Source: Arthrobacter sp. V1I7
Lineage (GTDB): Bacteria > Actinomycetota > Actinomycetes > Actinomycetales > Micrococcaceae
Assembly (NCBI RefSeq): GCF_030817015.1
Contig: NZ_JAUSYS010000001.1
Coordinates: 4,588,001-4,652,000 of the forward strand
Reading direction: 5' to 3'
Length of the DNA: 64,000 nucleotides
Under the pieces are notes generated by a model. The model was not told the origin of the DNA, made no database searches, and saw only the letters and a list, made by a program, of their open reading frames with translations. Position numbers and translations under genes: made by a program. This document shows, in pieces, positions 14,234-45,869 of the stretch; position 1 is the stretch's first letter; every line of letters begins with the position of its first letter.

Positions 14234-14257
14234 GGATTGTGCACAACTGCCACCAGG

Positions 14258-14933
14258 TTATCCACATTGTTGATAACTCGGCGTTGAACCCGGCCGAAAT
14301 AGGTCATGATCCGCGGCCCGGCACCGTCCCACTACCCGCCAGCCCGGCCATTCGCAAGGAAACAGCAAACGAACAGGTTATTAACACTGTGGATTGCTTG
14401 TGGATAACTCCCCAGCGCGATGCCCTTTCGTCGGGACCCCGGCCGACATCCGTGAACCAAGGCTCGTTGTGGGCGAAAATCCGCGGAAGCTGCCTCTCCC
14501 GAGACGTTATCCACTTACCAACAATCGTGTACCCACAACTTATCCACAGTTGGGGATAAACCTGGGGGCTGCGAAGCCGAAGCTCGATCTGAAGGCCCGA
14601 CCGGGTATCTCGGGGCCGCGAGGAGTCCCGCCCGCGGTTATTAACAGTGTGCATAAAGCTGTTGAAATCCGGGGCTACCGAGCCGGGTGCCACAAAAACC
14701 CTTCAAGCCAATGCCCGCCCTATGCACGGATTAGAGCGGTTCTGGTCCGGCCCTCTCGGCTACAGCCGGAGTTGTCCACTTAACCACAGGCCTGTTCCCT
14801 AAAGTTATCCACAGCTGTGGAGACTGTCGTTGCTCCGGAGTCGGAAACGCCAGCTGGGGCTGTCAGACCGGGCATCGCAGTCTGAACTACAGCCATGTAA
14901 GTTACCAACAGTGTGGATAACCCCTGTGGACAA
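14258..14933. promoter_or_regulatory. DnaA-box cluster between tag and rhomboid gene
   Basis: Against the consensus TTATCCACA, perfect boxes lie at 14258-14266 (+), 14399-14407 (-), 14540-14548 (+), 14805-14813 (+) and 14912-14920 (-). One-mismatch boxes lie at 14268, 14507, 14551, 14648, 14780 and 14925, with weaker ones at 14378, 14388 and 14772. The gap has no recognisable gene and is more AT-rich than its flanks. Box density is higher than in the dnaA-dnaN gap. It could be a second origin module, a DnaA-titrating site or a relic. Confidence 0.75.
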
Positions 14934-36410: not shown

Positions 36411-37478
36411 GTGACAAGCAGCGAAACCTCCACACAGCGGATCCCCCCGTTTGTGTCCCTGGGGTCAGCACGGTCCTTTGTTGCGCCCGCCATCACCCAC
36501 AACTTATCCGGGAATCACACGGCATCGGTTGCTAGGAATGCCGAGAAGGCCAGTGTTTCACGTGAAACGGCCGTCTCTGCCAGCGACAACGTGCTGGACT
36601 CCATCGATGATTCCAGCCCCATCGCCCGGGAACTGGCGCACGAAAACAAACGGCGCGAACGCCTTCTGGGCCGTGAACTGCCGAAGCCGGAGAAGACCAG
36701 AATCTTCACCGTGTCTAACCAGAAGGGCGGCGTGGGCAAGACGACCACTACGGTCAACATTGCTGCCGCACTGGCTGCCGCTGGGCTCAATGTGCTTGTG
36801 ATTGATATCGATCCGCAGGGAAACGCCTCCACTGCCCTCGGGATCGAACACCATGCCGACGTCGACAGCATCTACGACGTGCTGATCAACGACCTCCCAC
36901 TGCAGAAGGTAGTGGCGCCTTGCCCGGACATCGAAAAGCTGATCTGCGCTCCGGCCACCATTCACCTGGCCGGCGCGGAAATCGAACTAGTCAGCCTCGT
37001 GGCCCGCGAGCAGCGGCTTCGCCGCGCCATTGATGTTTACGCCAAGGAGCGGGCCAAGAACGGTGAGGAACGCCTTGACTACATCTTCATCGACTGCCCG
37101 CCGAGCCTGGGGCTGCTGACTGTCAATGCGTTCTGCGCGGCCAACGAGGTTCTGATCCCAATCCAGTGCGAGTACTACGCACTGGAGGGGCTGAGCCAGC
37201 TCCTGAAGAACATCGAAATGATCCAAAAGCACTTGAATGCGGACCTGGTCGTTTCCACCATTTTGCTGACCATGTACGACGGCCGCACGAACCTGGCCGC
37301 CCAGGTGGCCGCTGAAGTGCGTGAGCATTTCCCGGACCAGGTCCTCGGAGCCGTGGTTCCTCGCTCCGTCCGCATCTCCGAAGCACCCAGCTACCAGCAG
37401 ACCGTCATGACGTACGATCCGTCGTCGAGCGGCGCGCTGTCCTACCTGGAAGCCGCAGCGGAAATCGCTGAACGTTAG
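36411..37478 (+). CDS. parA: Chromosome partitioning ATPase ParA (Soj)
   Basis: This 355-residue deviant Walker A ATPase moves ParB-bound origins. The P-loop KGGVGKTTTTVN starts near residue 107; Walker B is DYIFIDCPPSLG. About 95 residues precede the ATPase core, and a perfect parS lies within the codons for SVSRET at 36554-36569. It starts at a GTG. In relatives ParA also interacts with polar proteins and, in Bacillus, regulates DnaA. Confidence 0.95.
   Translation: MTSSETSTQRIPPFVSLGSARSFVAPAITHNLSGNHTASVARNAEKASVSRETAVSASDNVLDSIDDSSPIARELAHENKRRERLLGRELPKPEKTRIFTVSNQKGGVGKTTTTVNIAAALAAAGLNVLVIDIDPQGNASTALGIEHHADVDSIYDVLINDLPLQKVVAPCPDIEKLICAPATIHLAGAEIELVSLVAREQRLRRAIDVYAKERAKNGEERLDYIFIDCPPSLGLLTVNAFCAANEVLIPIQCEYYALEGLSQLLKNIEMIQKHLNADLVVSTILLTMYDGRTNLAAQVAAEVREHFPDQVLGAVVPRSVRISEAPSYQQTVMTYDPSSSGALSYLEAAAEIAER
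36554..36569. promoter_or_regulatory. parS site 1 (inside parA)
   Basis: TGTTTCACGTGAAACG, perfect 14-bp core, in the codons of the ParA N-terminal extension. Confidence 0.9.
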
Positions 37479-37547
37479 AATCACTTTCAAGAATTGCAAT
37501 AACGAGAGCCCGGCGACGCCCGGCTCTTCCAATGGAGGGATGTAGCC

Positions 37548-38813
37548 ATGAGCGATAAGCGACGCGGCCTTGGCCGTGGACTTGGGGCACTCATTCCAAG
37601 TTCCGCCTCGATGAGCGGTTCCGGAAACGGTTCGGCGCCGTCCCGTCCCGTGGATCTGTTCTTCCCCGAACCCCGGAAGCGGAACGCTGCGCCCGAGGTT
37701 CCTTCGGCAGACGAGCTCGACGCCGACCTGGCGGAGGACGCCGCAGAGCCGCGGACGCAACCCACCAGCACTCAGACCGCGGCCGAGAATGAGTCGGCTA
37801 CCCCTGCCGGCGCGCCGGCCCGTAAAGCACCCGAACACCAGTTCGCCGCAGGCAAGGGTGAGTCCCCCGCCGCCGAGGACGTGACTGATGCTCAGGAAGC
37901 CGAGCCGAAAGCCAGTCCCAGGGAACGAAAAGCAGTGCCAGACGTTGGCCGGGAAGTTGAGGCTGACAGGGACTCGGGCGTCGACTTGGTCGAGGTACCC
38001 GGGGTTCGTTTCGCGGAAATACCCGTCACCGACATCCATCCCAACCGCAAGCAGCCGCGATCCGTCTTCGACGAGGACGACATGGCGGAGCTCGTGCACT
38101 CCGTGCGGGAAATCGGCGTCCTCCAGCCAATTGTCGTACGCACATCCACCGAAGAGGGTGGCGAACCATACGAGCTCGTCATGGGTGAGCGCCGCTGGCG
38201 GGCAGTGCAGGCGGCGGGACTGGAAACCATTCCGGCAATCGTCCGTGACACCACGGATGATGATCTGCTTCGCGACGCCTTGCTGGAGAACCTGCACCGC
38301 AGCCAACTGAACCCCCTCGAAGAGGCTGCCGCGTACCAGCAGCTCCTGGAGGACTTCGGCACCACCCATGAGCAGCTGGCAGACCGCATCGGCCGTTCGC
38401 GCCCCCAGGTCTCCAACACGCTGCGTCTGCTCAAGTTGCCTCCGCTGGTCCAGCGCCGCGTAGCAGCCAGTGTCATCTCGGCCGGCCACGCCCGTGCCCT
38501 CCTGGCGCTTCCGGACGCGGCGGCGATGGAACGCATGGCGCAGAAAATCGTTTCCGAGGGCATGTCCGTCCGTGCCACCGAAGAAGCCGTCACTCTATAC
38601 CAGAACCCCGCCTCGAATTCGAAGAACAACATCCCTCGTCCCGGTGCCCGGCACGAGCGTCTGGACTACCTTGCATCCTCCTTGTCCGATCGACTGGACA
38701 CCAACGTCAAGATCTCCCTGGGTGCACGAAAAGGACGCGTCAGCATTGAGTTTGCGAGCGTTGAAGATCTGAACCGCATTATGGATGTCCTCGCGCCCGG
38801 GCCTTCCAGCTAG
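37548..38813 (+). CDS. parB: Chromosome partitioning protein ParB
   Basis: This 421-residue CTP-dependent DNA clamp binds parS. The N-terminus ([14 protein letters not shown]) is the ParA-contact peptide and is followed by a long acidic, Ala/Pro-rich linker (about 30-140), longer than in most ParB. The CTPase/ParB-N region has [10 protein letters not shown] and [12 protein letters not shown]. The HTH has [24 protein letters not shown], and the C-terminal dimer domain starts after LDYLASSL. The ATG follows GGAGGG. It lies 69 bp after parA and beside the parS array. Confidence 0.95.
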
Positions 38814-38839
38814 ACCGCATTCCGCTGTCGCATTCGAGG

Positions 38840-38867
38840 GATCCTGTTTCACGTGAAACAGGGTCCT
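38840..38867. terminator. Hairpin overlapping parS, after parB
   Basis: Arms 38840-38853 and 38854-38867 form a 28-bp palindrome with one wobble pair, followed by TTTGCT. The parS site sits at its centre. It may stop parB transcription, but the absent loop and short T tract weaken that reading. Confidence 0.35.
38846..38861. promoter_or_regulatory. parS site 2
   Basis: TGTTTCACGTGAAACA, the perfect 16-bp palindrome, 32 bp after the parB stop. Confidence 0.95.
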
Positions 38868-39242
38868 TTGCTGTAGTCGCCCTGTCGTGAGGTTGGCCTC
38901 TCCTGGAGTTTCGGTGGACCCTGGTTGTAGTGCACGCATGGGACAGTTCTGGTTTTTACTCCTTCCGGCAACGGTCCGCGTGGCAACTGTCTTTACGAGC
39001 ACGCTCTCACACCTGGCAGGCCGGATTCTGTCTGGCTTTCCTCGGCCCAGAGATGCAGGATTGCCCCCTTGTGGGCTGCTGCGTTCGCTGCCCTTCTGAT
39101 GAGTGGTTTGGGATTCTTCGTTAGCGTGGCGGTCTCGGCCATGGCTGGACTTCTGGCATAAGTACCAGCTGTGGATCATGGAGCAGCTGCATGTTTGTTC
39201 ACTAGTGTCTGATGCTTCGGGTTCAGCGGTAGCGTGTTGTTG

Positions 39243-39258
39243 TGTTTCACGTGAACCC
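39243..39258. promoter_or_regulatory. parS-like site 3 (degenerate)
   Basis: TGTTTCACGTGAACCC, right arm altered, in repeat unit 1. Confidence 0.6.
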
Positions 39259-39506
39259 GCAGGATGATTTATGGGTAACCGGCAGACCGGTATCTGTCTG
39301 GCTTACCTTGGCCCAGAGATGCGGGATTTACCCTTATGGGCTGCTGCCTTCGAGGCCCTTCTGATGAGTGGTTTGGGATTCTTCTTTGGCGTGGCGATCT
39401 CGGCCATGACTGGACTTCTGGCATTAGTACCAGCTGTGGATCATGGAGCAGCTGCATGTTTGTTCACTAGTGTCTGATGCTTCGGGTTCGGGGGTAGCGT
39501 GCCGCG

Positions 39507-39522
39507 TGATTCACGTGAAACG
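39507..39522. promoter_or_regulatory. parS-like site 4 (one mismatch)
   Basis: TGATTCACGTGAAACG, one mismatch in the core, in repeat unit 2. Confidence 0.65.
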
Positions 39523-39780
39523 TTCGGACCGCAGCATGATTCATGAGCGTCCGGGCCGACCGGCATCTGTCTGGCTTTCCTTGGCCCAGAGATGCGGGAT
39601 TTACTTTGTGGGCTGCTGCCTTCGAAGCCCTTCTGATGAGTGGTTTGGGATTCTTCTTTGGTGCGGCGATCTCGGCCGTTGCTGGACTTCTGGCATGACT
39701 ACCGGCTGTGGATTATGGAGCAGCTGTATGTGTTCGTGCACTAGTGTCTGATGCTTCGGGTTCGGGGGTAGCGTGCCGCG

Positions 39781-39796
39781 TGTTTCACGTGAAACC
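39781..39796. promoter_or_regulatory. parS site 5
   Basis: TGTTTCACGTGAAACC, perfect core, in repeat unit 3. Confidence 0.9.
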
Positions 39797-40054
39797 TTCG
39801 GACCGCAGCATGATTCATGAGCGTCCGGGCCGACCGGCATCTGTCTGGCTTTCCTTGGCCCAGAGATGTGAGATTGACCCTGGGGGCTGCTGCGTTCGAG
39901 GCCCCTCTGATGAGTGGTTTGGGATTCTTCTTTGGTGCGGCGATCTCGGCCGTTGCTGGACTTCTGGCATGACTACCGGCTGTGGATTATGGAGCAGCTG
40001 TATGTGTTCGTGCACTAGTGTCTGATGCTTCGGGTTCGGGGGTAGCGTGCCGCG

Positions 40055-40070
40055 TGTTTCACGTGAAACG
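40055..40070. promoter_or_regulatory. parS site 6
   Basis: TGTTTCACGTGAAACG, perfect core, in repeat unit 4. Confidence 0.9.
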
Positions 40071-40223
40071 TTCGGACCGCAGCATGATTCATGAGCGTCC
40101 TTTTGTTGCAGAAACCACCGAAGACCGAACACAGAGTCAGACGGTGGATATCCGCCGTTCCGGACCGGCAGCCTTCTTCGCCATTGGCCTGCGGACCTCG
40201 CCGGATTCGTAGGCCCGCCCAGC

Positions 40224-40239
40224 CGTTTCACGTGAAACG
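40224..40239. promoter_or_regulatory. parS site 7
   Basis: CGTTTCACGTGAAACG, perfect core and fully palindromic, just beyond the tandem repeats. Confidence 0.9.
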
Positions 40240-41580
40240 CGATGCCCCGCTGAGCACGCCGGTTTTCGCTGCCGGTGCTTCTACTCGTGGAGGGGCCGAC
40301 GAGGCCGTCAAGGGGTGTGGCCACCAAAAATCCCTGACGAATGCGCCCGGTCCTCCTGTCGACTTTATCGGAACGCCAAAACATCACTTGGGGGTTGATT
40401 TGTTCGTTTTGTTGATGCCGCCCTAACTGACTGCACACGTCTAGACCGGGGCCATCTAAGAGGACCTGGACGTACACGTTGAGTGGATTTCGGAACCCAT
40501 GATGTCGGTTTCCACCGATTTGCCGGCTCGAGTAACGCCGCCGGCAGTCGGTACTATGGCTGCATCTCACGGCGTCGCTGAAAGCCCGCCTAGACACCGC
40601 GCTCCCGATCCGTAGCTGCGTACGGAGAGTGTCCTCCCTCCAAGAGGCAGCATGTCGCGATCTTGAGCGCCCACCAGAGACCCGGGCTGGCCGGGTGGGC
40701 GTGATAACCCAGCTTCGCCTGGAATCGCGAGTTTTGGCCGGGGCGGGGGGGCCACATGCTCGGCACCACTCCCCTGCGATGCAACGGTTAGTTGACACGC
40801 GGGGGTACTGCGCTGGTGTCGGCCGCGGTCCCGTCCTCTGCGGCCTGGTGCTCGTAGAGGGTTGGCTGTCGTGTGGGATCATGATTTCCGCTTGGACGGT
40901 TGCGACGATGTAGACAGGCTTCGCGACGCCCTGAACAGAGATCTGTTCTTGCCGCAGCTTCAGGTCGGAACTGCGGCGGCGAAGGCTTGGACTGGCAGGG
41001 GCAGACCGCGTTGCCACGCAGCGAATTTGGCGAACTACACGCGGCCATGCGTGGCGACAAATGAAGCATCGCCGTAAAGTGCCCGGCCGGCGCCACGCGT
41101 GATTCACAGCTCGTTGCGACTAACCGGCCGTCATGTTGGGACTCTGCGTGTCAGCTGCGGGGCGGCAGAAGCGAGATGTTTCAAGACAACAGCCCCGCGG
41201 CCACTCCGCCGGATGTTGCCGCTACGTCTTCTGAACAAGAGGTCGTAGATTCTGGGCGGCGTGCTGGGATTGCTACAGTCCTGGCGGGTTGGACGTGGGC
41301 AGGGGCGAGTATGGCCTGGCTGGGCAGGGCCCCTGCCCACGTTGCATCGTCGTCCGTCCTTGAAATAGGCGCCCACTACTGGACGGGACCGGGAGCGGTC
41401 CGGGGCTACATAGGGAGGCGAGCAAGGCGGGGCCGTGGAACAGCCCAGGCATGATCGGGTCCAATGGCGCAGGCGAATGTGGTTATGGTGGCGCTGCCTG
41501 ACGCGTGCTGGGTGATCCCGTGCCTTCACCGATCCGGACTGCAGCATCCCTATCCACACCAGCCGCCCTGTGCATGAGGC
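40240..41580. other. Gene desert, left-centre part
   Basis: No recognisable gene lies here. Frames up to 430 codons exist on the minus strand (for example within 39815-41107), but their translations are Arg/Pro/Ser-rich with no family resemblance, and that frame runs through the tandem repeats. No RNA gene or mobile element could be identified. Confidence 0.5.
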
Positions 41581-41613
41581 GGTGGATAACTTTGTGGATA
41601 ACTCTGTGGACTA
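41581..41613 (-). promoter_or_regulatory. Phased DnaA-box triplet 1
   Basis: Boxes start at 41581 (GGTGGATAA, one mismatch), 41593 (TGTGGATAA, perfect) and 41605 (TGTGGACTA, two mismatches). All have the same orientation and are exactly 12 bp apart. Confidence 0.65.
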
Positions 41614-41707
41614 CTGGTCCGAAGGTCTCCGGGGGCGCGTGCTGGGCAGGACCTGCAGAAGGCATGGTAGCCCAGTCGCCTAGCCGAACGATCCCCGATG
41701 GCGATCT

Positions 41708-41723
41708 CGTTTCACGTGAAACA
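41708..41723. promoter_or_regulatory. parS site 8
   Basis: CGTTTCACGTGAAACA, perfect core, about 95 bp after DnaA-box triplet 1. Confidence 0.9.
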
Positions 41724-41969
41724 TGGGCGGCCCGATTCCGTCCACGCACAACACGACGTGAGTACTAGAAATATCGCAAGATTCCGGTTAATTTCGGCCT
41801 AATACGGGGCTCGTTCCGGTTGCCCTGGGCTGTATCCAGCTCCCGACGCCAGCGTCGGTCAAGTAACTCCAGGGCTCCCGACTTCACCGGCGCTGTACTC
41901 CGAGCCAGGTACCAGGGGCGTAGCCTCCCCTTCTGCTCCGACGGTGGCTGTGAGAAATCACTCACCCCC

Positions 41970-42003
41970 TGTGGATAACTGTGTGTATAACTTCTGTGGA
42001 CAA
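41970..42003 (-). promoter_or_regulatory. Phased DnaA-box triplet 2
   Basis: Boxes start at 41970 (perfect TGTGGATAA), 41982 (TGTGTATAA) and 41995 (TGTGGACAA), one mismatch each for the last two. All share orientation at 12- and 13-bp spacing and end 16 bp before the ATG at 42020. Confidence 0.75.
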
Positions 42004-42019
42004 CTTCAAGGCTCGTGAG

Positions 42020-42171
42020 ATGCCAGCGCCGGGAAATGGAGAACAGGATCTCGGCCAGCGTCGTTTGTTCAACGTTTGATTCCTCACCCACCTGATTTAG
42101 GGCCTCATTCCTGACCCCAGGAAGTGGAGTCGCACGACATTCCTGAGCACCAGGGAGTGGAGTCGCACGAC
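42020..42171 (+). pseudogene. Decayed small repeat-protein gene, copy A
   Basis: From the ATG at 42020 the frame reads MPAPGNGEQDLGQRRLFNV and stops at TGA 42077-42079. An extra T in GTTTGATT relative to copy B causes the shift. Downstream, 11-codon units at 42107-42138 (one base short) and 42139-42171 read EHQGVESHD in another frame. No known family is recognised. Confidence 0.4.
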
Positions 42172-42369
42172 TTCAAGCAGCTAGGTCACAACGACCAGGA
42201 CCAGGATCACTCACCCTCCCCCAGATCCGCGAACGTGTACGCGATCCAGATTGCCAGAACGTTGCAGCGCATATCTTTAGTCCCCTGAGGTGCTATGCCG
42301 GTCACGAGATACCAGGAGCTTGGTGTCCCCTTCTGCTCTGACGGAGGTTGTGAGAAATCACTCGTACCC

Positions 42370-42403
42370 TGTGGATAACCGTGTGAATAACTTCTGTGGA
42401 CAA
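42370..42403 (-). promoter_or_regulatory. Phased DnaA-box triplet 3
   Basis: Boxes start at 42370 (perfect), 42382 (TGTGAATAA) and 42395 (TGTGGACAA), with the same 12- and 13-bp spacing as triplet 2, and end 16 bp before the ATG at 42420. Confidence 0.75.
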
Positions 42404-42419
42404 CTCAGAAGCGCGTGAG

Positions 42420-42647
42420 ATGCTAACGCCGGGAGATGAAGAATAGGCTCTCGGCCAGCCTCGTCTGTTCAACGTTGATTCCCCGCCCATTCTGATCCAA
42501 GGCATTATTCCTGAGTACCAGGGAGTGGAGTTGCAAGACATTCATGAGCACCAGGGAGTGGAGCCGCAGGACATTCCTGAGCATCAGGGAGTGGAGCCGC
42601 AAGACCTCGAGCAGCTAGCTCTCAACGACCCGGACCAGGATGACTGA
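42420..42647 (+). pseudogene. Decayed small repeat-protein gene, copy B
   Basis: From the ATG at 42420 the frame reads MLTPGDEE, meets TAG at 42444-42446, then stays open in the same frame to a TGA at 42645-42647: ALGQPRLFNVDSPPIL, three 11-residue units (42507-42605, consensus IPEHQGVEPQD), then LEQLALNDPDQDD. Apart from the TAG it would encode about 75 residues with acidic repeats. Copy A is broken elsewhere, so the ancestor was probably intact. Function unknown. Confidence 0.45.
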
Positions 42648-43426
42648 CCCTCCTCCAGATCCGCGAACCTGTACGCGACCGAGAGTGCCAGAACGTTGCA
42701 CCGCCCATCATTAGTTCCTGAGGTGCTATGCCGTTCACGATGGCACCAGGACCAAAGTCAGCCGCCGACTCTGGTCCTGCCCTCCGCAATGCTCCGGTCC
42801 ACGATCTCCGTTCACGGTCCGCTCAGGCACAGGGACGGATCCGAGACAAATGGACGGACTCAGGCCGGGGCCGCACCGGGGGTCCCCTAGATCCCCTAAC
42901 CTGGAAAGACTCACCCTGCGGCCTGTGTCCGACTCAGTCTGAGCACCAAGCACTCAGCGGCCCGACCACCGGATTCCCTATAGCTCGGGCATGCGCCGGC
43001 GCAGGGTGCTTGGGCACGCCATGACGGACCGTCTTGGTCTACGGTCGGCGCAGCCAAGTCTTCTGGTGCACCGCCCTTGTGCAGCATGCTGCCTGTGCGC
43101 CGGGGCACGAGGCGCAGCTCCTGCAGGAGTCGGAGCCAGGGTCATGTCAGTCCCTAACCGGAGCCGGCTGGAGTCAAGGACGGCTGGGTGGGACTCCGGT
43201 GGGTGCCTTGCGGCCCGCGTGTATGGCAGCAATAGCAGACCTCAGCGCCACATGTCCGCTACAGGTCCTCAACGCCAAAGGACCGCCGCTGTGTGTGAAT
43301 CATGAGACAACAATCGCAGTTTGCAACGACCCTCCGAAGAGCTTCCAGCAATGAATGGCTTCGGGTCCAGGCTTAGCAACGACGTCTCCCGTGAGTTCGC
43401 ACCAATCCCCCAGAAGCGTGGCACCA

Positions 43427-43442
43427 TGTTTCACGTGAAACT
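43427..43442. promoter_or_regulatory. parS site 9
   Basis: TGTTTCACGTGAAACT, perfect core. Confidence 0.9.
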
Positions 43443-43882
43443 GCCCGGAACGTGTTACTCCGAAACCTATTACCTTTTACCTCGTTGGCACAGACCAGCA
43501 GCGATGAGGCTGAACTCGGCGAGCACGCGGCGGGCTGTCTTCGCTTGCGAGGACAGGAACGGACACAGATGCCGTTTTACAGAACCCGTACCCCGAGCAT
43601 GCAAAGTTGCAGGGCCTTGCTGGTGGCTGCAGATCGGTGGGGGTCCGATTGCGCCGGCGACCCGGGGACCCGCTCGCGCTGTTCGGCCGGCACTCGTGGC
43701 ACGCCCGAAGCCTTTTGCCGTCCACGACTTAAGTGATAGGCAAATATTAATTCCTTGAATCGCTGATGATCGTAGCGGCGCTTTAGGCAGCGACTCTTGA
43801 CCTAAGGATTGACCTTGACCTCCAAACGATTCCCCACAATCTCAGAGTGGGCCCAGATGACGCAAGCGACGGAATTCGGTCT

Positions 43883-43898
43883 TGTTTCACGTGAAACA
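43883..43898. promoter_or_regulatory. parS site 10
   Basis: TGTTTCACGTGAAACA, perfect 16-bp palindrome. Confidence 0.95.
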
Positions 43899-43978
43899 AT
43901 CCAGTGCGGACGATCTGCGAATATCCAGATTGAGAGATTGAGAGATGGACCGGGTTCTCTGGCCCAAAGGTCGTGAAA

Positions 43979-44880
43979 TGGCGCAAGCGGCACCTCCTCG
44001 ATGGTGTCCAGGGGCTGCGTGACGCGCCGTTTCCAGGGCCGCGAACCGGAGATCGATCCGCTGACGCTCATTGCCGAAATCCTGGTCAACGATAGGAACC
44101 GCCTGCAGAGCCGGGGATACTGCATTGGTCCGCGCGGAGCACGGCCGAGCGGTTCGGGATCTCCTATTCGTCCGTGGCCCGGACCCGGCGCAGATGGAAA
44201 ATCCAGCCGCACCGCGTTGAGACCTTCAAGTTCTCCACCCATCCGCAGTTGGAGGCCTAACTGCACGACGGGGTCGGGCCTGTATATGTCACCTCCCAAG
44301 AACGCCGTGGTGGGCAGCGTCGATGAGACGAGCCCAGATCCAGATCCTGGCCCTGGACCGCACGCGTGCGAACCAGTTGCTGTCCACTGGTCATGCGTTC
44401 CAGCAGACGCACGATTACAAGCGCAACGGGACCGAGACGCTCTTCGCGGCCCCGGACGTGCTCACTGGCAGCTCAGTCAGTGCCCACACCTTCTGCCAAC
44501 GGCACACCAATACCGGGTCCGTGGACTTCCCGGGCCAGGTTGCGGCCGCTCCGCCAGTCGTTGAACTGCACGTCATCTGCAACAACTACGCCACCCACAA
44601 GCATCAAAACGCCAGGTACTGGCTGGCAGCCAACCCGCAGACGACGCTGCACTTCACCCCGACGAGCTGCTTCTGGCTGAACATGGTCGAGATCCTCTTC
44701 GGGCTGTCGTCTGCCAACCGATCAGCCGCGGATCATTCCACTGGGTCCACGACCTCGAACAGACCATCGGGACCTACATCGCCGACTACAACGAAGGCGC
44801 CCAACCAGTCCGCTGGATCAAAACCGCAGAATACCTACTGGACAAGATTAAGCGGAAGCAAACAACCAACACGCGCCACC
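43979..44880 (+). pseudogene. IS630-family transposase relic
   Basis: Pieces of an IS630/Tc1-type transposase appear in order but in several frames: WRKRHLLDGVQGLRDAP (from 43979), HWSARSTAERFGISYSSVAR, HRVETFKFSTHPQLEA then stop (about 44211), PPKNAVVGSVDET (first catalytic Asp), AQIQILALDRT, THDYKRNGTETLFAA, LHVICNNYATHKH (second Asp replaced by Asn), HFTPTSCFWLNMVE (Glu), and KTAEYLLDKIKRK near the end. There are at least four frameshifts. No terminal inverted repeats were identified. It is an inactive remnant. Confidence 0.8.
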
Positions 44881-44959
44881 AGCTGCTTGCTGCTATTGCC
44901 GGTGGAGAACCCATATTGCTTCTTCCCACCCTCGCACGATCTCGCGGGTCCGGCGCCGC

Positions 44960-44975
44960 TGTTTCACGTGAAACG
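44960..44975. promoter_or_regulatory. parS site 11
   Basis: TGTTTCACGTGAAACG, perfect core, 80 bp after the transposase relic. Confidence 0.9.
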
Positions 44976-45154
44976 GGAGCGAGCCCGAACTGGACGCAGC
45001 GGGTTAGAAACCACGTAGCGAATCGCCAGCAGGGTTTCCCGTTACACAAATTCGGGCTGTTCCGCGGCTTCCGGAATTCACTGACCCTGGTGATGCAAAG
45101 CCCGGGGTATCGCTCGTGCCACAGCACTGGGTCCCCGATCGGCCCCTGCCGCGG

Positions 45155-45170
45155 TGTTTCACGTGAAACA
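45155..45170. promoter_or_regulatory. parS site 12 (extended palindrome)
   Basis: TGTTTCACGTGAAACA at the centre of a perfect 26-bp palindrome (45150-45175, outer arms CGCGG/CCGCG). Confidence 0.95.
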
Positions 45171-45241
45171 CCGCGCGAAAGACAGCAAGCAGCTCCCGCA
45201 GCGGACACTGTTGCCTCTCGTAAAATGCGGGGTCCTCCCCA

Positions 45242-45257
45242 CGTTTCACGTGAAACA
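45242..45257. promoter_or_regulatory. parS site 13
   Basis: CGTTTCACGTGAAACA, perfect core, 87 bp from site 12 and the last in the window. Confidence 0.9.
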
Positions 45258-45470
45258 TACTTGATTGGAAGCTGTCCGCGCAAAGGGGTGACCCTCCTTC
45301 GAGTGGGTCCGGAGGAGTCTGTTACAGAGCCGAGCCTTGTCTGCAAAAACCCGCGTGAACTCAACCCCCAACCGGTGAAGGACAGGACCGGCGCATCTAC
45401 TTCCAAGTTCACTTTACCGGTGGCGTCGGCCCCATTCAGGCGCAAGCTTAACCGAGAGGAACTGGACCAT

Positions 45471-45504
45471 AAAAAGAGGTCCCACTTCCAGGAAGTGGGA
45501 CCTC
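45471..45504 (-). terminator. Terminator of the trxB-trxA operon
   Basis: Arms 45476-45489 and 45491-45504 form a strong hairpin; five U residues follow on the minus strand (45471-45475). It lies 39 bp after the trxA stop. Confidence 0.88.
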
Positions 45505-45542
45505 AATGGCCTGCCGCAACTGATCACGGCGAAACCATCGAA

Positions 45543-45869
45543 CTAGGACAGTACGTCCGCGAACTCCTTCTCGAAGAACTGCTTGGGCCTGGCACCGATT
45601 ACCGTGCTCTTGACCTCGCCGTTCTGGAAGAGGTAGACGGCCGGGATGGACGTGATGCCGTACTCGGCGGCGATGGCCGGGTTGTCGTCAACGTTGACCT
45701 TCACGACGTTCACCTTTTCGCTGTACTCCACGGAGATCTCGTCAAGGATCGGCCCCAGTTTGCGGCACGGTCCGCACCATTCGGCCCAGAAATCCACGAT
45801 GACGGGCTTGTCCGCTGCCAGCACATCTGCACTGAAACTGGCGTCGGTTACATCTTTAGCGTTGCTCAT
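45543..45869 (-). CDS. trxA: Thioredoxin
   Basis: This 108-residue thioredoxin has the active site WCGPC (Cys32, Cys35), VDFWAEW before it and the cis-Pro segment GITSIPAVYLF. I chose the ATG at 45869 (MSNAKDVTDAS); the longer upstream frame overlaps trxB and is not native. The gene is 37 bp after trxB and shares its terminator, so TrxB reduces TrxA made from the same message. The trxB-trxA pair near parAB is a classic actinobacterial origin neighbour. Confidence 0.96.
   Translation of the reverse strand: MSNAKDVTDASFSADVLAADKPVIVDFWAEWCGPCRKLGPILDEISVEYSEKVNVVKVNVDDNPAIAAEYGITSIPAVYLFQNGEVKSTVIGARPKQFFEKEFADVLS

Follow-up and report, generated by a model that had tools for sequence, protein, structure and literature searches.

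What kind of element is the array of ParB-binding sites (parS) beside the partition genes parA and parB of Arthrobacter sp. V1I7, and is it set apart by the dense packing of these sites or by something else? We addressed this question in a 64,000-nucleotide stretch of the chromosome (contig NZ_JAUSYS010000001.1, positions 4,588,001 to 4,652,000), referred to below as the window. Between parB and the thioredoxin gene (trxA, minus strand, 3' end at 45543), the window has a gene-poor spacer of 6.7 kb in which parS sites are accompanied by phased, one-strand arrays of predicted DnaA boxes, and arrays of this type recur in the corresponding gap across the genus, usually close to a parS site. The best reading of these patterns is an initiator-linked centromere, a known kind of element.

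parS sites and DnaA boxes in the window

A search of the window with the motif GTTTCACGTGAAAC, allowing up to two mismatches, returned 13 parS matches, all within 36555-45256, of which 11 were exact and two had one mismatch (Table 1); 0.21 matches would be expected by chance, and each of 100 shuffled sequences gave two at most. Across the whole genome (5,031,275 bases in two contigs), the identical 13 sites and no others were found at up to one mismatch, and the reversed-pattern control gave none. All 13 consensus sites of the genome are thus contained within 8.7 kb, a few kilobases from dnaA, with the array starting about 4 kb beyond that gene. The parA and parB genes are adjacent and both have Pfam matches, while the dnaA open reading frame (ORF) was recognized by its motif GGRDHTTVIHADRKI, which we take to be the DnaA DNA-binding signature. 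Together, the ParA and ParB family matches and the consensus parS sites bear out the ParABS centromere proposed in an earlier sequence-only reading of this DNA. That reading had also counted 11 perfect and two variant sites in 8.7 kb and had placed one in parA, one after parB and the rest in a gene-poor stretch; both count and placement agree with the coordinates, its end points being one base wide on each side, and the motif count over the whole chromosome that it had proposed as a check yielded only these same sites.

The first parS falls in an N-terminal extension of the parA ORF, where it translates as VSRET, the second begins 33 bases beyond the last base of parB, and the remaining 11 occupy 39244-45256, ahead of the thioredoxin gene. 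A parS in the N-terminal region of parA has a near-constant place in most loci of the genus (about 9010 in the oriented loci), unlike most other parS of the genus, whose positions vary.

With TTRTCCACA, presumably the DnaA-box consensus, the window gave 14 exact matches where chance predicts 0.42, and five of these fall in the parB-trxA gap. When one mismatch was allowed, the boxes of the gap formed three one-strand triplets at a 12-13-bp phase (module A, module B and a second copy of module B; Table 1). The sequence-only reading had made no mention of these box arrays. A similar 12-bp box architecture is present beside dnaA in many loci.

Conservation of the arrays across the genus

To place the window among its relatives, we used a sample of 61 genomes of the genus, which is Arthrobacter in the broad sense (the genome of the window and 60 drawn genomes). 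The relaxed score by which modules were counted had been fixed after first looks at the arrays, and the count was hence repeated on all 61 genomes. At least one phased DnaA array was present in the parB-trxA gap of 61/61 genomes, always in the parAB orientation, and 57 had at least two, the first two lying 324-403 bp apart in all 57. In none of the 61 genomes did the other strand of the gap carry a module, and the controls were nearly empty, with modules in 2 of 1220 first-order Markov copies of the gaps and in 0 of 61 reversed gaps. Predicted DnaA boxes within the parS region are, in other words, conserved across the species sampled. A strict array pattern with up to one mismatch found 49 of the 61 genomes, with one to three hits apiece regardless of placement relative to parS arrays and none in the reversed control, and each of the 12 genomes that it missed carries a relaxed module. 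In a draw from the family, the strict pattern was present in 13 of 18 genomes of the genus vs 1 of 227 genomes from 31 other genera; the parS array of this one genome (G163, of the sister genus g7) includes one phased triplet plus a looser group of boxes, co-oriented with parB. A stricter triplet rule was passed by 22 of 25 genus loci (L043, L045 and L052 failed) and by a single one of 42 other loci, gaps shorter than 400 bp having excluded 14 of the original 56; none of 2000 shuffled gap strands passed it.

The arrays also keep a restricted distance to parS. In 59 of the 61 genomes, the first array has a parS site no more than 160 bp away, and in 52 this site comes after the array, at +104 to +153. 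From the central exact box to the next parS, the distance is 104-154 bp in 48 of 59 genomes, most commonly 115-116, and in these 48 it groups at 104-106, 111-118, 122-129 and 138-139 bp. The best period tried for these distances was 12, the array's own period, in genomes that are related to each other, and we therefore do not read the grouping as helical phasing.

Apart from parS, and beyond it a stretch that is loosely AT-rich, little is conserved in the part of the sequence around the modules that was listed. Guanine-plus-cytosine (GC) content is 0.53-0.55, vs about 0.61, at 100-250 bp past the start of module A (25 loci), which is compatible with easy melting and proves nothing. Sequence comparison indicates that the gap is otherwise hardly conserved between species: in a blastn search of the window gap against 80 named ParB loci, eight loci matched, with DnaA triplets in five of the matches and a parS centre in three, and 240 of 2560 ORFs in the gaps match another gap, three ORFs of the window gap among them. 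No widely conserved ORF was found in the gaps, any one ORF matching at most four other gaps of 55, and an Rfam search of the window gap gave zero matches. Gap length ranges from 3.9 to 16.4 kb in the genus; the gaps reach 13.2 kb in G032 (L169) and 16.4 kb in G047 (L165, L207), which is two- to threefold the usual length, and parS is more spread in both.

Outside the gap, module-like runs on the reverse strand occur in 32 of the 61 genomes and are taken to be dnaN-dnaA boxes. The window itself also has a separate intergenic cluster at 14237-14933, about 16 kb from dnaA, with 14 DnaA-box matches at up to one mismatch (six exact), flanked by one ORF resembling a DNA-3-methyladenine glycosylase and another resembling rhomboid proteins, both named by reading. 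In 8/8 relatives, seven or more boxes are clustered near its projected place. The cluster is possibly part of an origin or a titration site. The GC skew of the window has a minimum at 13-15 kb that is not the minimum at the 440-kb scale, and therefore we claim no origin there; the cumulative skew at that scale was noisy and did not point to an origin.

Density, duplication and neighbouring features

The sequence-only reading had singled out the dense packing of parS as unusual, and this did not survive comparison. At up to one mismatch, every one of the 61 genus genomes has 7-14 parS; in the 60 genomes with parB and trxA in the stretch, these span 4.9-18.3 kb (median 7.3 kb), and the window ranks fourth of 60 in parS per kb. 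Contig ends affect some of these values: the counts of G014 (no parB in the stretch) and G048 (no parA) rest on cut arrays, as does the first density rank of G048, and the region of G047 was joined from two stretches. Some parS lie away from the main stretch in G023, G047 and G060. Among the 80 named ParB loci surveyed, compact arrays were also found in Georgenia (nine parS in 2.7 kb), Cellulomonas humilata (nine in 4.5 kb) and Kineosporia (seven in 2.7 kb, all one-mismatch forms). The accompanying claim, that the parS of other actinobacteria are usually spread over tens to hundreds of kilobases, is right for G321, a large genome of the same class in which the first 16 listed of 22 exact parS span about 225 kb, and for Corynebacterium glutamicum, with 10 parS over 35 kb in the excerpted report (PMC7083940), but wrong for these three. 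Routine occurrence of such arrays in unrelated actinobacteria, which the reading had named as counting against its claim, was largely what we saw. Density as the finding was therefore rejected, since arrays this dense are routine, and parS density alone marks nothing special in this family; it is plausible, though, that the array acts as one very strong putative ParB-loading centre.

Four of the parS, both variants among them, sit in the copies of a tandem repeat (Table 1), and therefore the high count is partly the product of local duplication. A block of ~400 bp is also duplicated at 41.9-42.7 kb (families D5 and D6). Among 55 complete gaps, 7 contain direct repeats of at least 100 bp, and the window gap has the longest. 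Within the duplicated block, ~33-bp direct repeats of the CCAGGGAGTGGAGTCGCACGAC type adjoin DnaA module B (42117-42605). Toward the far end of the spacer lies a decayed transposase remnant, which we take to be of the IS630 type and whose DDE_3 score falls just below the Pfam cut-off.

In another genome of the same phylum (G440, loci L179-L185; 3.4 Mb), 114 exact parS 14-mers are dispersed over the chromosome, often paired at a distance of 34-36 bp within small palindromic units, and G352, of the same family as G440, has 14. The 14-mers of G440 could belong to a mobile repeat that carries parS, or they could be the site of another regulator.

Table 1. Features of the dnaA-parAB-trxA region of Arthrobacter sp. 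V1I7, in window coordinates
Feature	Coordinates	Strand	Basis
dnaA	31207..32631	-	ORF; protein carries GGRDHTTVIHADRKI; identified by reading the sequence
parA ORF, Walker-type ATPase	36411..37478	+	Pfam AAA_31 3.9e-56, CbiA 3.8e-28
parS, exact, inside parA	36555..36568		motif search
parB	37548..38813	+	Pfam ParB_N 2.2e-35, HTH_ParB 5.3e-35, ParB_C 1.3e-7
Gene-poor parB-thioredoxin spacer, with 12/13 parS and all three DnaA arrays	38814..45542		ORFs, blastn, array search
parS, exact, just 3' of parB	38846..38859		motif search
Tandem ~265-274-bp repeat, four copies (the last one partial) with one parS apiece	39012..40100	+	repeat search (families D1, D2, D3, D7)
parS, one mismatch (GTTTCACGTGAACC)	39244..39257		motif search
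parS, one mismatch (GATTCACGTGAAAC)	39508..39521		motif search
parS, exact	39782..39795		motif search
parS, exact	40056..40069		motif search
parS, exact	40225..40238		motif search
DnaA module A: predicted boxes 41581, 41593 (exact), 41605, 12 bp apart	41581..41613	-	box search
parS, exact, 116 bp past central box of module A	41709..41722		motif search
DnaA module B: predicted boxes 41970 (exact), 41982, 41995 (exact)	41970..42003	-	box search
DnaA module B, second copy, in duplicated block: predicted boxes 42370 (exact), 42382, 42395 (exact)	42370..42403	-	box search
parS, exact	43428..43441		motif search
parS, exact	43884..43897		motif search
ORF over decayed DDE_3 transposase remnant	44323..45018	+	DDE_3 1.8e-6, 28.3 bits vs cut-off 28.6
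parS, exact	44961..44974		motif search
parS, exact	45156..45169		motif search
parS, exact	45243..45256		motif search

Coupling, titration and the known systems

How might the two kinds of site work together? The locus reads as the ParABS centromere near the origin of an Arthrobacter-type chromosome, and we give an even chance to the view that it is composite, linking ParB loading with putative DnaA binding. The spacer, with its 7-13 parS and usually two DnaA arrays, the first about 100-150 bp from one parS, suggests that the centromere may respond to replication initiation or act on it. According to published excerpts, ParB elsewhere loads at parS and slides in a cytidine triphosphate-dependent manner; here ParB would load at parS and slide along the spacer, whose scarcity of genes would allow sliding with few RNA polymerase encounters. 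DnaA may bind the arrays, probably in its adenosine triphosphate form (DnaA-ATP) because phased arrays favour oligomers, and DnaA on phased arrays adjoining a loading site would meet ParB. A DnaA complex within the ParB loading zone could tie segregation of the origin region, or ParB/SMC loading, to DnaA activity, and this might occur in two ways: (i) DnaA could license movement of the centromere, as it reportedly does at the parS of Caulobacter, or (ii) ParB and DnaA could mutually exclude each other and thereby tune how much DnaA reaches the origin, as with ParB2 and RctB at rctA/parS2 in Vibrio. Going further, we tentatively propose a genus-wide DnaA-ParB switch, in which DnaA-ATP oligomers beside a positioned parS would control ParB/SMC loading or centromere movement and ParB occupancy would feed back on DnaA, so that initiation and segregation would share one DNA element.

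Several points weigh against such a composite centromere. DnaA binding and function are what we infer, and the DnaA-box identity of the motif is presumed. Arrays are not always found close to a parS: no parS lies within 160 bp of the array in G163, nor of the first module in G039 and G047 (2/61), and in Sinomonas (L049), which has triplets of slightly different phase, the next parS is 0.7-1.2 kb on. The arrays of G163 and L049 suggest that arrays may predate close contact with parS. In 7 of the 61 genomes, parS comes before rather than after the first array; by a rough estimate, a random point would have a parS within 160 bp at about 0.4 per genome (~8 parS in a ~5.4-kb gap), and the genomes sampled are related. 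Several loci named Arthrobacter or Paenarthrobacter that fall outside the GTDB genus (L053, L055-L058 and L075) are without triplets, so these names do not guarantee that the element is present. In addition, a single parS suffices in C. glutamicum according to the excerpted report (PMC7083940), and therefore not every site need matter.

While coupling to the centromere is held most likely, titration alone comes second. It is possible, if somewhat doubtful, that the arrays do no more than titrate DnaA, sitting in the single large spacer near the origin that is poor in genes, and that the nearness of parS has no function. Escherichia coli datA and a DnaA-box cluster of Streptomyces act as DnaA sinks, and the phased consensus boxes near the origin in 61/61 genomes, probably a cluster outside oriC, would suit such a role, as would the arrays of G163 and L049 that lack an adjacent parS; the 14.2-14.9 kb cluster shows that extra-origin clusters exist in the window. 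However, a plain sink needs neither the restriction of the arrays to one strand nor the positioned parS described above, an argument that the relatedness of the genomes weakens. An unlikely alternative in our estimation is that the arrays form a promoter region under DnaA control, serving some small gene or RNA that lacks annotation. A role of DnaA as transcription factor is on record (PMC8203912, in excerpt), but the Rfam result, the lack of a widely conserved ORF and the sparse conservation around the modules in the part listed all speak against it. Least probable is a reading in which the arrays serve, within the centromere, as the active origin of bidirectional replication or as an additional origin. 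The oriented 12-bp-phased boxes do resemble those beside dnaA, and the GC content past module A is lowered; yet the sign of the non-coding GC skew does not change, with +0.034 (standard error of the mean [SEM], 0.004) left of module A and +0.031 (SEM, 0.005) right of the last module, and skew is positive in 48/59 genomes on the left and 45/59 on the right. This test covered 59 genomes after six duplicates were dropped, with the 24 named genus loci chosen after our survey of parS arrays in named loci. The modules also have far fewer boxes than the 14.2-14.9 kb cluster, and a bidirectional origin at the modules is unsupported.

Among the known systems, a DnaA-box cluster outside oriC in Streptomyces, said to have been reported by Smulczyk-Krawczyszyn in 2006 to regulate replication, is similar in being such a cluster in an actinobacterium. 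The further comparisons draw on excerpts of the cited sources. In Caulobacter crescentus, DnaA binding within parS has been reported to be needed for DnaA-dependent partitioning (Mera et al. 2014; PMC6399470, PMC4468827), so that both systems have DnaA sites at an origin-proximal centromere, a DnaA-binding site there and predicted sites here. Caulobacter, however, has one main parS (PMC6399470), whereas the Arthrobacter genus has 7-13 per array and multi-box phased arrays of predicted sites, usually two. On chromosome II of Vibrio cholerae, ParB2 counteracts initiator titration at rctA/parS2 (PMC6399470, PMC4468827); an initiator-binding site (predicted here) and parS are likewise joined in one element, but the initiator is RctB, which is unrelated to DnaA, and the chromosome is a secondary one. 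The ten consensus parS of C. glutamicum also form one origin-proximal cluster, a ParB and SMC loading region, which differs in extending over 35 kb, lying 73 kb from oriC and being nearly all intergenic among genes (PMC7083940); DnaA arrays go unmentioned in the excerpts of that report, and the C. glutamicum sequence was not searched for them. Contacts between the two machineries are known elsewhere, with control of DnaA by Soj in Bacillus and ParB-DnaA or ParA-DnaA contacts in Deinococcus, Vibrio and Bacillus (PMC7022226); a 2013 review, in excerpt, stated that a ParA-DnaA interaction had yet to be published for actinobacteria (PMC4255298). In the open-licence literature, the titles and abstract openings among the matches listed described no actinobacterial parS array with DnaA arrays in it.

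The coordination of replication initiation with segregation is an old question, for which reviews, as excerpted, name two clear direct contacts between an initiator and a centromere. Since the boxes are defined, the spacing is narrow and no known genes overlap it, the element described here should be cleanly deletable or shiftable, and the question would thereby become directly testable in a soil bacterium.

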